From Streptomyces actuosus (GTDB lineage: Bacteria > Actinomycetota > Actinomycetes > Streptomycetales > Streptomycetaceae), in contig NZ_JAFFZS010000010.1 of the NCBI RefSeq assembly GCF_016921115.1, positions 124,001 through 188,000 on the forward strand: a DNA stretch of 64,000 nucleotides, in the 5' to 3' direction. Within the stretch, counting starts at the first letter, position 1. Each line of letters opens with the position of its first letter. Positions 6,712-24,076 of the stretch are shown one piece after another. A model generated the notes under the pieces. That model saw only the letters and a program-made list of their open reading frames with translations, searched no databases and was not told the origin of the DNA. Made by a program: the position numbers and the translations under genes.

Positions 6712-7071
6712 TCAGCCTCCCCAGATGTCGTAGAGCCGCACCTCGAGCACGGCCAGGACGATACCGCCGGCCGCCACCGTCACCGACCCCCACCGGGTGC
6801 GCTCGGCAAGCGACATGAACCCCGCCGCCGGGATGCAGGCGAACGCGCCCAGCAGATACGCCACGAAGATCGTCGTGCCCTGCTCCGGCTCCCCGCCCCG
6901 CGCCAGCAGCACGATCCCGGTCACCAGTTGGACGGTGGCCAGCAGCGTGACCACGGCCATTCCGATGAAGTGCCAGTCCTTCGTCGGCTGGTCGCGGTAG
7001 GCCGCCCAGCCGCACCACGCGGCGAGCAGCAGCGCGGCGACACCGGTCACCAGCGTCAGGGCATCAAGCAT
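6712..7071 (-). CDS. conserved small membrane protein, unknown function
   Basis: A 119-residue protein with about four hydrophobic segments, starting MLDALTLVTGVAALLLAAW. It is the first gene of a two-gene operon with the next membrane protein (spacing one base). It is divergent from the methionine-transporter leader region, about 320 bases away. No recognisable domain. Confidence 0.75.
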   Translation of the reverse strand: MLDALTLVTGVAALLLAAWCGWAAYRDQPTKDWHFIGMAVVTLLATVQLVTGIVLLARGGEPEQGTTIFVAYLLGAFACIPAAGFMSLAERTRWGSVTVAAGGIVLAVLEVRLYDIWGG

Positions 7072-7331
7072 GCAGTGACCCTATTACGGCCCCGGCCGGC
7101 CCCCGTCGCCGCCCCGCGACGGGGGCCGGCCGGGGCCCGGGCCGGCCGTCGCCGGGCGCGCCACGGCAGGCCCGGCCGCCGTGGCTTCGGCCACAGCCGT
7201 CGCCGCCTGTCCCGTCCCGTGACAAGGCCGCCGGCCCGGCTGCCCGCCGGCCCCGCGCCCTTGTCCGCACTGGCCGGCGGGCGGCCACCGGACGGAAGGG
7301 GGAGGCCGGGCGGCTCCGCCCGGCACCTGTC

Positions 7332-7360
7332 CGCGGCCGTCCACGATGTGGACGGTCGCG
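7332..7360. promoter_or_regulatory. long interrupted palindrome upstream of the met leader
   Basis: Arms CCGTCCAC / GTGGACGG flank GAT (7337-7355) and the symmetry continues outward after one G-T mismatch with CGCG/CGCG to 7332-7360. It ends 35 bases before the leader-peptide start, around the -35 region of the leader promoter, in a divergent intergenic region. An operator is the natural reading; which regulator binds is unknown. A transcription terminator is unlikely because both flanking units are transcribed away from it. Confidence 0.5.
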
Positions 7361-7395
7361 GCGGGTCAGCACCGTACGTCTGCTTTACTGCTCGC

Positions 7396-7482
7396 ATGAC
7401 CACGACGAGCTGCCGCATCCCTGCGACCGAGGCGACCATGACGCCCGGTGCTCGTCGCATGTGTCGAATGTGCGCCTTCTAG
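7396..7482 (+). CDS. 28-residue Met/Cys-rich leader peptide
   Basis: A short ORF of 28 codons ending in RRMCRMCAF, with Met-Cys pairs repeated just before the stop. TTTACT at 7384-7389 is a plausible -10 box six bases before the ATG, so the ORF would be translated from a leaderless transcript. It precedes a methionine-type ABC importer by 240 bases. A hairpin (GTGC 7470-7473 with GCAC 7492-7495) includes its last codons, and others follow (CTCGC 7507-7511 with GCGAG 7520-7524). Leaderless polycysteine ORFs acting as cysteine-responsive attenuators are known in mycobacteria. The assignment here is by analogy. Confidence 0.65.
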   Translation: MTTTSCRIPATEATMTPGARRMCRMCAF

Positions 7483-7721
7483 AGGGCCCCTGCACCACCC
7501 CAGAGCCTCGCGCCCCGAAGCGAGCCACCCGGGCACGTCCGTAGGGTCCGACCGTACGTGAGTCCGCCCCCGCCCCCACCGCCTGAACGGCGCGGGGGGA
7601 CACCGCGCACCTGTTCTCCCCCGGTTCCACGCCACCGCGAGAACCGTGCCGCGCTCATGACCGCATGCACTCCCGCACGGGCACACCCACGCCCGTGCAC
7701 CCGACAGTGACGGAAACCCCA
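7483..7721 (+). promoter_or_regulatory. structured leader RNA (putative attenuator) of the metNIQ operon
   Basis: The 239 bases between the leader stop and metN contain several self-complementary segments: 7507-7524 (5-base stem), CACGT/ACGTG around 7535-7562, and a GC-rich pairing of GTCCGCCCCCGC with GCGGGGGGAC just downstream that could act as a terminator or ribosome-occluding stem. I see no SAM-riboswitch core. The competing pairings are read by eye, not folded. Confidence 0.4.
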
Positions 7722-8777
7722 GTGATCACCACATCGGGCCTGACGAAGACCTACCGGGCCCACCGTTCCCACGGCCCCGAGGTCACCGCCCTGGACGGCG
7801 TCGACCTCCATGTCCGGGAAGGCGAGGTGTTCGGCGTCATCGGCCAGTCCGGCGCCGGCAAGTCCTCCCTCATCCGCTGCATCAACCTGCTGGAACGACC
7901 CACCGCCGGCACCGTGACGGTGGACGGCCAGGACCTCACCGCCCTGGTCGGCCGCGGCCGCCGTGCCTCCCGCGCCCTGCGCGAGGCGCGCAGCCGCATC
8001 GGCATGGTGTTCCAGCACTTCAACCTGCTCTCCTCGCGGACCGTGCGGGACAACGTCGAACTTCCCCTGGAGATCCTCGGCATGTCCGGCCGGGACCGCT
8101 CCCGCAAGGCACTGGACCTGCTCGACCTCGTCGGTCTCGCCGACAAGGCCGACGCCCACCCGGCCCAGCTCTCCGGTGGCCAGAAGCAGCGCGTCGGCAT
8201 CGCCCGCGCCCTGGCCGGCGACCCCAAGGTACTGCTGTCCGACGAGGCCACCAGCGCCCTCGACCCGGAGACCACCCGCTCGATCCTCCAACTGCTGCGC
8301 GACCTGAACCGGCAGCTCGGCCTCACCGTGCTGCTCATCACCCACGAGATGGACGTCGTGAAGTCGATCTGCGACAGCGCCGCCCTGATGGAGAGGGGCC
8401 GCGTCGTGGAGTCCGGCACCGTCGGCGAACTGCTGGCCACCCCCGGCTCCGCTCTGGCCTCCGCCCTGTTCCCGGTCGGCGGCGAGGCCACCGGCACCGA
8501 CCGCACCGTCGTCGACGTCACCTTCCGCGGCGAGAGCGCCACCCAGCCGGTCGTCTCCCGCCTGGCACGCACCTACAACATCGACATCTCCATCCTCGGC
8601 GCCGCCGTCGACACCGTCGGCGGCCGCCAGATCGGCCGCATGCGCATCGAACTGCCCGGCCGCTACGAGGACAACGTCGTACCCGTCGGCTTCCTGCGCG
8701 AGCAGGGACTCCAGGTCGACGTCGTCACCGAACAGGACCGGCAGCCCGTCCCGGTGGAGGAAGGTGCACACAAGTGA
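7722..8777 (+). CDS. metN: methionine ABC transporter ATP-binding protein MetN
   Basis: The ATPase of a D/L-methionine importer. Walker A is GQSGAGKSS, the ABC signature LSGGQKQR, Walker B VLLSDEATSALDP and the H-loop LLITHEMD. The C-terminal ~80 residues form a NIL domain, the allosteric methionine-sensing domain that inhibits transport when methionine is high. I chose GTG 7722 (351 residues, VITTSGLTKTY), with GGAAA upstream; ATG 7665 and GTG 7707 are in-frame alternatives. The stop overlaps the permease start by four bases. Expression is probably set by the leader ORF and structured RNA upstream. Confidence 0.9.
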   Translation: MITTSGLTKTYRAHRSHGPEVTALDGVDLHVREGEVFGVIGQSGAGKSSLIRCINLLERPTAGTVTVDGQDLTALVGRGRRASRALREARSRIGMVFQHFNLLSSRTVRDNVELPLEILGMSGRDRSRKALDLLDLVGLADKADAHPAQLSGGQKQRVGIARALAGDPKVLLSDEATSALDPETTRSILQLLRDLNRQLGLTVLLITHEMDVVKSICDSAALMERGRVVESGTVGELLATPGSALASALFPVGGEATGTDRTVVDVTFRGESATQPVVSRLARTYNIDISILGAAVDTVGGRQIGRMRIELPGRYEDNVVPVGFLREQGLQVDVVTEQDRQPVPVEEGAHK

Positions 8778-9508
8778 GCACGACCGACTGGTCCGAGATG
8801 CAGCCGCTGCTGACCCAGGCCTGCCGGGACACGTTCTACATGGTCGGCTGGTCCGCCCTCGTCGCCGTCGCCGGCGGACTGCCGCTCGGCATCCTCCTCG
8901 TGCTCACCGACCGGGGCGGACTCCTGAGCAACACCGTCGCCAACAAGGTCGTCGGCCAGCTCGTGAACGTCGCCCGCTCGATGCCGTTCATCATCCTGAT
9001 GATCGCTCTGATGGGCTTCACCCGGTGGATCACCGGCACGACCATCGGCCGCGACGCCGCCATCGTGCCGCTCGCCATCGGAGCGATCCCGTTCTTCGCA
9101 CGCCTCGTCGAGACGGCCGTCCGCGAAGTGGACGGCGGGCTCGTGGAGGCGGTCCAGGCGATGGGCGGCAACACCTGGACCGTGGTCCGCAAGGTCCTCG
9201 TCCCGGAGTCGCTGCCGTCCCTCGTCTCCAGCACGACCACCACGATCGTCGCCCTCATCGGCTACTCCGCCATGGCCGGCACCGTCGGCGCCGGCGGCCT
9301 CGGCGACATCGCCATCCGCTACGGCTACCAGCGCTTCGAGACCCAACTGATGTGGATCACAGTGGCGATCCTCGCCGTCGTCATCTCCCTCATCCAGTTC
9401 GCCGGCGACTGCACGGCCCGCGCCCTGTACCGGCGCGGCGGCCGATCCTCTCCCGCGCCCGCGCTCAGGTTCCTCAAGGCCGCCACGGCCGGCAGCAGGA
9501 CGGCCTGA
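8774..9508 (+). CDS. metI: methionine ABC transporter permease MetI
   Basis: A 244-residue permease with about five membrane helices. The cytoplasmic EAA loop that docks the ATPase is seen as GLVEAVQAMGGNTWTVVRKVL (residues ~122-142). It starts at GTG 8774 inside the metN stop (GTGA), so the two are translationally coupled. It pairs with MetN and the downstream lipoprotein in one importer. Confidence 0.9.
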   Translation: MSTTDWSEMQPLLTQACRDTFYMVGWSALVAVAGGLPLGILLVLTDRGGLLSNTVANKVVGQLVNVARSMPFIILMIALMGFTRWITGTTIGRDAAIVPLAIGAIPFFARLVETAVREVDGGLVEAVQAMGGNTWTVVRKVLVPESLPSLVSSTTTTIVALIGYSAMAGTVGAGGLGDIAIRYGYQRFETQLMWITVAILAVVISLIQFAGDCTARALYRRGGRSSPAPALRFLKAATAGSRTA

Positions 9509-9572: not shown

Positions 9573-10400
9573 GTGCGTAACACCGCCAAGATCACCACCG
9601 CCGTCCTCGCCGCCGGAGCCCTCGCCCTCGGGCTCACCGCCTGCGCCTCGGACAAGGACTCCGCCTCCGGCGCGACCGGTCCGCTGGTCGTCGCCGCCAG
9701 CCCGGTCCCGCACGCCGAGATCCTGAACTACGTCAAGGACCACCTCGCCGAGAAGGCCGGCCTCGACCTGGAGGTCAAGGAGTTCACCGACTACGTCACG
9801 CCGAACACGGCGACGGAGGACGGCTCGGTGGACGCCAACTACTTCCAGAACCAGCCGTACCTCGACGACTTCAACGAGAAGAAGGGCACCCACATCGTGC
9901 CCGTCGTCACGGTGCACCTGGAGCCCCTCGGCCTGTACTCGCACGAGGTGAAGAAGGCCGACGAGCTGAAGAGCGGTGCGACCGTCGCCGTCCCCAACGA
10001 CACCGTCAACGAGGCCCGCGCCCTGAAGCTGCTCGCCGCCGGCGGACTGATCACCCTCAGGGACGGCGTCGGCAACGACGCGACCCCCGCGGACATCACC
10101 GCCAACCCCAGGAACCTCACGTTCAAGGAACTGGAGGCGGCGCTCACCCCGCGCTCCCTGGACGACGTGGACGCGGCCGTCATCAACGGCAACTACGCCA
10201 TCGAGGCCGACCTGAAGCCCGCCGACGACGCCCTCGTCCTGGAGTCGCCGAAGGACAGCCCCTACGGCAACTTCCTCGCCGTGAAGAAGGGCGACGAGAA
10301 CGACCCGCGGGTCAAGAAGCTCGCCGAACTCCTCACCTCCCCCGAGGTGAAGAAGTTCATCGAGGACACGTACGCCGGCTCCGTCCTCGCCTCCTTCTGA
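9573..10400 (+). CDS. metQ: methionine-binding lipoprotein MetQ
   Basis: A 275-residue substrate-binding lipoprotein of the NlpA/MetQ family. The signal peptide ends in the lipobox LTAC with Cys24, giving lipid anchoring on the outer face of the membrane. The mature part starts with the family pattern VVAASPVPHAEIL and includes GSVDANYFQNQPYLDDFN and VPNDTVNEARALKLL. GTG 9573 has AAGGAAAGG upstream. It follows metI by 64 bases, and a strong hairpin at 10425-10461 ends the operon. Confidence 0.92.
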   Translation: MRNTAKITTAVLAAGALALGLTACASDKDSASGATGPLVVAASPVPHAEILNYVKDHLAEKAGLDLEVKEFTDYVTPNTATEDGSVDANYFQNQPYLDDFNEKKGTHIVPVVTVHLEPLGLYSHEVKKADELKSGATVAVPNDTVNEARALKLLAAGGLITLRDGVGNDATPADITANPRNLTFKELEAALTPRSLDDVDAAVINGNYAIEADLKPADDALVLESPKDSPYGNFLAVKKGDENDPRVKKLAELLTSPEVKKFIEDTYAGSVLASF

Positions 10401-24001: not shown

Positions 24002-24005
24002 TTGG

Positions 24006-24076
24006 AGGTGGAGACGGGATTTGAACCCGTGTAGACGGCTTTGCAGGCCGTTGCCTCGCCTCTCGGCCACTCCACC
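24006..24076 (-). tRNA. tRNA-Cys (GCA)
   Basis: 71-base cloverleaf: acceptor GGTGGAG/CTCCACC, anticodon stem ending ACGGC/GCCGT around CTGCAAA (anticodon GCA), T arm GGTTCAAATCC. Only four bases separate it from the third tRNA-Val. Confidence 0.97.

Follow-up and report, generated by a model that had tools for sequence, protein, structure and literature searches.

Examination of the DNA upstream of the metNIQ operon, which encodes a methionine importer, suggests that its short leader ORF, metL, is likely to be an attenuator, one that would sense charged Cys-tRNA, and probably Met-tRNA with it, through the speed of the ribosome that translates it from a leaderless start. The window examined here is the whole 64,000-nucleotide stretch of Streptomyces actuosus DNA. 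Comparison of related loci brings out a conserved ORF with a kept reading frame, an enrichment of Cys and Met codons at its end, a conserved RNA fold, a C-rich region behind its stop codon and an upstream site like that of the regulator NdgR. These comparisons turn metL from an entry in one species into a defined, family-wide element with testable parts, and point to sensing of sulfur amino acids by ribosome speed in Streptomyces, in a sulfur leader of another kind than the Cys leaders already described.

Location, start and spread of the leader ORF

The original prediction had placed a leader ORF of 28 codons with an apparently leaderless start before the methionine importer. Its coordinates and peptide proved exact (Table 1), and the leaderless start is borne out by a TTTACT element spaced 6 or 7 nt from the leader ATG in 125 of 127 relatives and by the account given for S. 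lividans (PMC8079986). The downstream MetN protein contains the ABC_tran and NIL domains, scores 365 bits against the NCBIfam MetN equivalog, below its cut-off of 499.7, and is followed by MetI and MetQ. The ACGGA read as its Shine-Dalgarno sequence is seen before metN in most of 30 loci, with other forms in some divergent relatives. The GTGA closest upstream was rejected as the metN start, since it shares the frame of metN in only 70 of the 127 relatives, lies out of frame in 46 and is absent from 11. Two further elements of the window may be mentioned here. A 22-nt inverted repeat without mismatches, its arms 6 nt apart (7088-7137), a possible terminator or insulator, lies between the start of a minus-strand ORF (6712-7071) and the metL promoter. 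A tRNA-Cys gene (gca; 24003-24076) occurs in a tRNA cluster (Val, Val, Val, Cys, Gly) of the same window as the Cys-codon leader.

Table 1. Positions of the leader, its RNA elements and the metNIQ genes in the window
Feature	Position	Strand	Remark
Palindrome GTCCACGATGTGGAC, similar to the motif of NdgR (IclR-type regulator)	7339-7353		14 of 15 positions fit the printed expression, compared by eye
-10-like TTTACT of the leaderless promoter	7384-7389	+	ends 6 nt 5' of the ATG
Leader ORF (metL), 28 codons, peptide MTTTSCRIPATEATMTPGARRMCRMCAF	7396-7482	+	ATG at 7396, TAG at 7480-7482; frame kept at ten lengths
P1, 5' arm, GACGAGC	7404-7410	+	pairs with 7450-7456
P2 hairpin CGCA-UCCC-UGCG in the leader ORF	7414-7425	+	89.9% of cells paired
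P3 hairpin CCG-A-GGCG ... CGCC-CGG in the leader ORF	7427-7448	+	74 sequences
P1, 3' arm, GCUCGUC	7450-7456	+	double change at pair 7409-7451
Putative regulatory tail codons R-M-C-R-M-C-A-F	7456-7479	+	near-invariant CGA-ATG at 7465-7470
UGUCGA, candidate partner of CCGACA 7701-7706	7462-7467	+	predicted pairing
Predicted hairpin around the leader stop codon	7470-7495	+	altered or lost in several divergent relatives
5' untranslated region, rich in C and poor in G, where Rho may load	7483-7721	+	(C-G)/(C+G) 0.25
Hairpin C, CUCGC-GCCCCGAA-GCGAG, conserved	7507-7524	+	five pairs, two of them with double changes; 89.6% of cells paired
Hairpin D region	7537-7562	+	covaries in relatives; imperfect in the window
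Hairpin F, GCACGGG...CCCGUGC, just 5' of the metN ribosome site	7675-7698	+	on the tree, pair 7675-7698 has four paired co-changes and two breaks
Weak Shine-Dalgarno ACGGA of metN	7710-7714	+	read from the sequence
metN, methionine ABC transporter ATPase with NIL domain	7722-8777	+	start GTG at 7722
metI, permease	8774-9508	+	
metQ, substrate-binding lipoprotein	9573-10400	+	

A search for short ORFs of the Met-Cys type upstream of metN elsewhere in Streptomyces, the check that the original prediction had named, recovered the leader in all 90 sampled loci; these comprise 30 plus 60 upstream regions from the better-scoring part of the matches listed among 295 genomes of the genus (metN relatives are present in 295 of 295), a sample that leans to close metN. 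The leader also precedes metN in 37 more divergent loci, some of the same genus and some of other genera, giving the set of 127 used for later counts. These were taken from 40 leader matches (39 lower-scoring ones of the family search, one of the class search) after dropping three in which a script found no metN start; among the dropped loci L142 and L168 look like true leaders, and L177, outside the family, looks false.

Fairer estimates of spread than 90 of 90 come from a profile search of the family and a covariance-model search of the order, the queries of both being built from sequences within the group. A profile of 16 leaders matches 93 of 200 family genomes at E <= 0.01, the weakest of them doubtful. 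The covariance model, built from 74 sequences to which some of the searched genomes contributed, matches 269 of 293 genomes of the order, all within the same family; three of the 269 belong to other genera (one of these weakly, E = 8.5e-5), at least seven genomes of the genus have no match in this search, and some genomes show a second or third match. At the class level the profile matches 71 of 394 genomes at E <= 0.05, with a best value outside the genus of E = 0.0017, and in the phylum the covariance model matches 18 of 296, nine strongly, all of the same genus, and nine weakly. A search of phage records gave no match. Judging from these matches, the leader is a widespread element of its family, and its conservation together with its kept reading frame rules out a chance ORF.

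Coding frame and the cysteine- and methionine-rich tail

The distance from the leader ATG to the hexamer CGAATG takes ten values between 66 and 99 nt, all of them multiples of three, in the 126 of 126 leaders that have the hexamer; tail motifs were used in choosing the ORF of the 37 divergent leaders, so that the frame is not wholly independent there and is cleanest for the 90 loci. The spacing between CGAATG and the GGCC that follows, 19 nt in 32 and 20 nt in 87 of 126 leaders, is not bound to the frame. This pattern of length variation indicates that the leader is a coding ORF, one that is probably translated.

Downstream of a Pro-Gly pair, Cys accounts for 374 and Met for 249 of 1368 codons (27% and 18%), compared with 0.77% and 1.66% of codons in 44 crude gene calls of the window, and every one of the 127 leaders has at least one Cys and at least one Met codon there. 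CGAATG is present in 126 of the 127 leaders, and Arg-Met near the end in all of them. Tail Cys codons of the 90 Streptomyces leaders are TGT in 179 cases and TGC in 103, a usage that differs from that of the window genes (TGT 9, TGC 112). The original prediction took Met-Cys to be the repeated unit. The clustering of Cys and Met codons at the end of the ORF stands, whereas the R-M-C-R-M-C of the window turned out to be a minority form, with Arg where most leaders have their first Cys; the commonest tail contains C-M-C-R-M-C (ARCMCRMCAF in 35 of 90). Adjacent Cys pairs are found in none of the 27 tail types of the 90 leaders. On this comparison the tail is better read as Cys-rich with one invariant Arg-Met. 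Two divergent leaders, at L170 (121-237, plus strand; tail RCMPLRAWPSQTARRMCAR) and L172 (598-711, minus strand; tail RCMPVRAWPSPTGRMCAR), have longer tails that keep CGAATG and have lost the middle Cys codon, illustrating the tolerance of the leader tail.

A three-way-junction RNA inside the leader ORF

The first ~61 nt of the leader are predicted by RNAalifold, from 90 sequences, to fold as a three-way junction of the stems P1, P2 and P3, and single-sequence folds give the same overall shape (z = -3.47 for the window and -2.1 to -4.9 for four relatives). In an alignment of 74 sequences the leader stems and hairpin C of the downstream region form 94.8% standard pairs against 92.4% in shuffled alignments and contain 39 double-changed cells against 13, values that none of 500 shuffles reaches. 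Slid versions of the structure are at most 41.5% paired, a comparison in which the tested structure has the advantage of being derived from the consensus of the same sequences. Further pair types in the 74 sequences are not above those of the shuffles (13 against 12.7; 280 of 500). The clearest variation is in P1, which reads GACGAGC/GCUCG in most leaders and GACGAAC/GUUCG in many divergent ones. The G-C to A-U double change at pair 7409-7451, found in 24 of the 74 sequences, may be a single event; it alters two residues of the peptide, S5N with A19V. In P3 six of seven pairs are invariant and one has double changes across the 74 sequences, with two paired co-changes and no breaks on the tree, and the innermost pair of P2 is unpaired in 28 of 74.

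Codons 5, 7, 10-13 and 17 are identical, down to the nucleotide, in 90 of 90 leaders, and the variable codons 6, 8, 9, 14 and 15 lie mainly in the loops and the junction; the 3' arm of P1 was left out of this listing, in which codons 19 and 20 are counted as loop. We conclude from the alignment that the conservation of the N-terminus is explained by RNA structure, which the original prediction had not noticed in this part, more than by peptide function. Conservation of a leader ORF may accordingly be set largely by the RNA that it encodes, a caution that a conserved leader peptide need not imply a functional one. A more elaborate reading would give the 87-nt stretch two roles at once, as a leader ORF that senses Cys/Met and as a three-way-junction RNA with stems that prevail over the peptide sequence, with translation and folding mutually exclusive and two signals combined, namely ribosome speed and the access of a ligand, a protein or Rho by way of the junction, all behind an NdgR-type promoter for sulfur and branched-chain metabolism. 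As a whole this composite appears quite unlikely to us.

The region between the leader stop codon and metN

The 327 nt from the leader to metN are predicted to fold with -136 kcal/mol (z = -2.96), an energy that none of 100 shuffles reached. This agrees with the structured RNA announced in the original prediction, whose hairpin over the last leader codons is likewise recovered in the predicted fold (Table 1). The part from the stop codon to metN varies from 146 to 339 nt among the 127 relatives and is consistently rich in C and poor in G: the (C-G)/(C+G) skew has a mean of 0.23 and exceeds 0.1 in 127 of 127, the leader itself being near neutral (0.03). The value of the window lies in the top 0.5% of its 240-nt pieces, both strands considered. 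As a control, 27 stretches upstream of called window genes have a mean skew of 0.02 and a maximum of 0.17, their transcription as leaders not being established and one of them being that of metN itself with a misplaced start. By composition this C-rich stretch suits Rho loading, which the conserved hairpins within it could hinder.

Pairs of hairpins C and D have three co-changes each on the tree, with four to fifteen breaks. The tree scan returned 482 column pairs with at least one paired co-change, uncorrected for multiple testing, and of the three pairs with four events, two show nine or ten breaks and seem due to chance. A scan from 6900 to 8000 of the window turned up no site resembling an intrinsic terminator, with its G+C hairpin and a U run behind it, and an intrinsic terminator of the trp type was rejected for the window. 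A pairing of the leader CGAGGC with GCCUCG of hairpin C was considered and set aside, because several divergent relatives that retain CGAGGC in the leader have other letters in place of the hairpin C arm. Letters similar to UCGACAGUGACGGA before metN (7701-7714 of the window, and in relatives) are better conserved than their surroundings, and pairing with the leader is unsupported as the reason for this.

An NdgR-like palindrome upstream of the leader

The palindrome before metL resembles the 15-bp NdgR motif obtained by ChIP-seq in S. coelicolor (PMC4340878). Its core, GTCC-N7-GGAC, occurs within 95 nt upstream of 111 of the 127 leaders; when the letters were shuffled, 20 rounds gave a mean of 0.3 of 127. 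In 91 of these 111 the first G lies 57-58 nt before the leader ATG, and most of the 16 leaders that lack the full palindrome carry related half-sites. By this resemblance it is a candidate NdgR site, at which NdgR may bind. Membership of the NdgR regulon finds imperfect agreement: the window site fits the motif at 14 of 15 positions, and the regulon table for S. coelicolor (34 genes, one growth condition) contains leuB, metF and cysI, while the absence of metN from it counts against membership (PMC4340878). Allowing at most one mismatch, a search of the leader's own genome yielded 18 palindromes against 16 with a reversed control, which is no enrichment; the site of the window, two letters off GTCC-N7-GGAC, is not among the 18. 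Among eight of the 18 contexts inspected, one palindrome stands before a leuB-like gene (named by eye) and one before a sulfite/nitrite-reductase-like gene that has a leader of the NF042934 type.

In S. coelicolor, metNIQ is induced by oxidative stress through HbpS-SenS-SenR, and a SenR site, CCGTGCCGCGTTCCG, has been predicted before SCO1559 (PMC4991794). Letters similar to CCGTGCCGCGTTCCG are found at ~7641-7655 of the window, inside the transcribed metL-metN leader; the predicted site may reflect conservation of the RNA and not an operator.

Proposed mechanism and alternative explanations

In light of these features we propose the following scheme. Transcription from an NdgR-type promoter would begin with the A of the leader ATG, and a ribosome would load on the 5'-terminal AUG. 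If Cys or Met runs short, the ribosome would stall at codons 21-26, adjoining the stop codon, and would prevent the downstream RNA from silencing metNIQ, so that the importer is made. With an ample supply it would finish and leave, the leader would refold as the three-way junction, and the C-rich stretch 3' of the stop codon, then bare, would allow the operon to be turned down. The stalling, the identity of the sensed amino acid, the part of Rho and the binding of NdgR are steps that we infer rather than draw from the comparison. Cys is placed first because it is the more frequent in the tail and because Met limitation would starve translation initiation too. Given attenuation, Rho-dependent early termination in the C-rich stretch has close to an even chance of being the output step, and masking of the metN ribosome site is a possible, less probable one; we lean to termination of the Rho type. 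Against the mechanism, the pairing between the tail and the ribosome site lacks covariation or association, which leaves no supported switch between leader and operon. Furthermore, mutation of candidate regulatory codons upstream of S. coelicolor ilvB had no effect (PMC1262725), a warning for inferring attenuation from codons.

The masking route can be set out as a full explanation in its own right: UGUCGA in the tail would pair with UCGACA 5' of the metN Shine-Dalgarno sequence and hide the ribosome site, and a stalled ribosome would free it. RNAalifold predicts this helix on the 90 sequences, its pairing is predicted above 0.5 in 63 of the 127 relatives, and UCGACA (CCGACA in the window) is confined to this place, being present no more than 30 nt from metN in 110 of 127 relatives but in 0 of 720 other 35-nt pieces of the untranslated regions. 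Yet its two halves are not associated (87 leaders with both, 13 with that of the leader only, 23 with that of the ribosome site only, 4 with neither; Fisher p = 0.76), and several related divergent leaders carry CCGACCACGA-like letters in place of a masking half. In simulations, the opening energy of the metN start region falls by 0.89 kcal/mol on average when a ribosome masks the stall site (the change being below -1 in 52 of 127 relatives and above +1 in 10), compared with -0.07 for an early mask and -0.01 for one behind the stop codon, the wider start region used here having been chosen after the result with a narrow one had been seen. The narrower region, tried first, gave averages of -0.60 and -0.52 for two stall positions, and values below -1 also arise with the early mask, in 43 of 127, although it exceeds +1 in 25. 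These simulated effects appear small, and we regard masking as a rather doubtful account of the leader. In nascent-peptide arrest, for which the arrest of the ribosome by TnaC with Trp is the model, the C-terminus (RMCA or RMRA) would bind SAM, Met or Cys in the exit tunnel and arrest the ribosome. The presence of Arg-Met near the end of 127 of 127 leaders, encoded by CGA-ATG in 126, would fit, but other tail positions tolerate insertions and substitutions, the residues after Arg-Met vary, and most of the N-terminal conservation is accounted for by RNA structure; such arrest seems improbable.

A sensor might instead be sought in the three-way junction itself, as a ligand-binding RNA to which the ORF is secondary. 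Compensatory changes do conserve the fold, and the stems override the peptide (S5N with A19V), but the loops and the junction are variable (codons 6, 8, 9, 14 and 15), unlike those of usual aptamers, and the reading frame is kept. No riboswitch of Rfam 15, including the SAM types, Streptomyces-metH and Streptomyces-metK, matches the leader: the window yields tRNAs only at the gathering thresholds, and the single weak match on the leader is to a microRNA family. A known riboswitch was rejected on these grounds, and the junction as the sensor seems very improbable. Finally, regulation could lie in the promoter alone, through NdgR or another regulator, with the leader merely providing a leaderless 5' end. 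The occurrence of GTCC-N7-GGAC in 111 of 127 relatives, for the most part at a single position, and the HbpS-SenS-SenR-dependent response of metNIQ to oxidative stress in S. coelicolor (PMC4991794) speak for this, but it leaves the Cys/Met tail, the kept frame and the RNA fold unexplained, and we hold it to be hardly probable. Attenuation by ribosome speed remains our preferred reading of metL.

Comparison with known leaders

The main idea of the leader is already known for one species. In S. lividans TK24, metL (SLIV_29928), located before metNIQ and encoding the peptide MSTTSDRTPATEATTTPGARCMCRRMCAF, has been called an attenuator, with a leaderless transcription start, hairpins, no typical Rho-independent terminator and 'termination unclear' (PMC8079986). 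It agrees with the window leader in kind of locus, operon and leaderless start, and its peptide is identical to those of loci L016, L020 and L027. That report (PMC8079986) concerns one genome and stresses Met and Thr, and its passages on metL do not mention a three-way junction, an NdgR-like site, the spread of the leader or a C-rich stretch. No study of the mechanism of metL turned up in the literature searched. New in relation to print are its family-wide spread, the kept frame, the three-way junction, the NdgR-like site and the C-rich region. Of what characterizes leader-peptide attenuators in general, metL has the short upstream ORF (frame kept in 126 of 126) and the codon cluster (Cys 27%, Met 18%); as to alternative structures, RNA folds are conserved and the halves UGUCGA and UCGACA are without association.

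Leaderless ORFs with Cys codons act as attenuators in M. smegmatis, and mycobacterial Cys leaders work through ribosome speed (PMC9031893). Like metL, the poly-Cys leaders of mycobacteria are short, have Cys codons near the stop and lie upstream of sulfur genes. Their Cys codons are contiguous (PMC9031893), whereas in metL they are interspersed with Met and Arg. Furthermore, metL precedes a methionine importer, unlike the poly-Cys leaders, and two metL leaders searched against NCBIfam, including NF042934 and NF042936, the families listed for the mycobacterial leaders, matched 0 families at E <= 1. Stalled ribosomes on mycobacterial poly-Cys leaders reportedly unmask a ribosome site, a finding ascribed to Canestrari in 2020. 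The tnaC leader ORF of E. coli, like that of metL, stands before a stretch at which Rho loading has been proposed; high Trp induces tnaC by way of its nascent peptide, whereas metL would respond to scarcity. The tna operon has been named as a model for the cys leaders, and Rho was proposed earlier for those of mycobacteria (PMC1262725).

The same genome contains another short leader, marked by RRHVDL (L034, ~1550-1712; G000:C271), before a sulfite/nitrite-reductase-like gene and with GTCC-N7-GGAC upstream. It resembles metL in being short, in standing before a likely sulfur gene and in the similar palindrome nearby, but it matches NF042934 above the cut-off and its peptide is unrelated. By these features it is a second likely sulfur leader, which may share its operator with metL.
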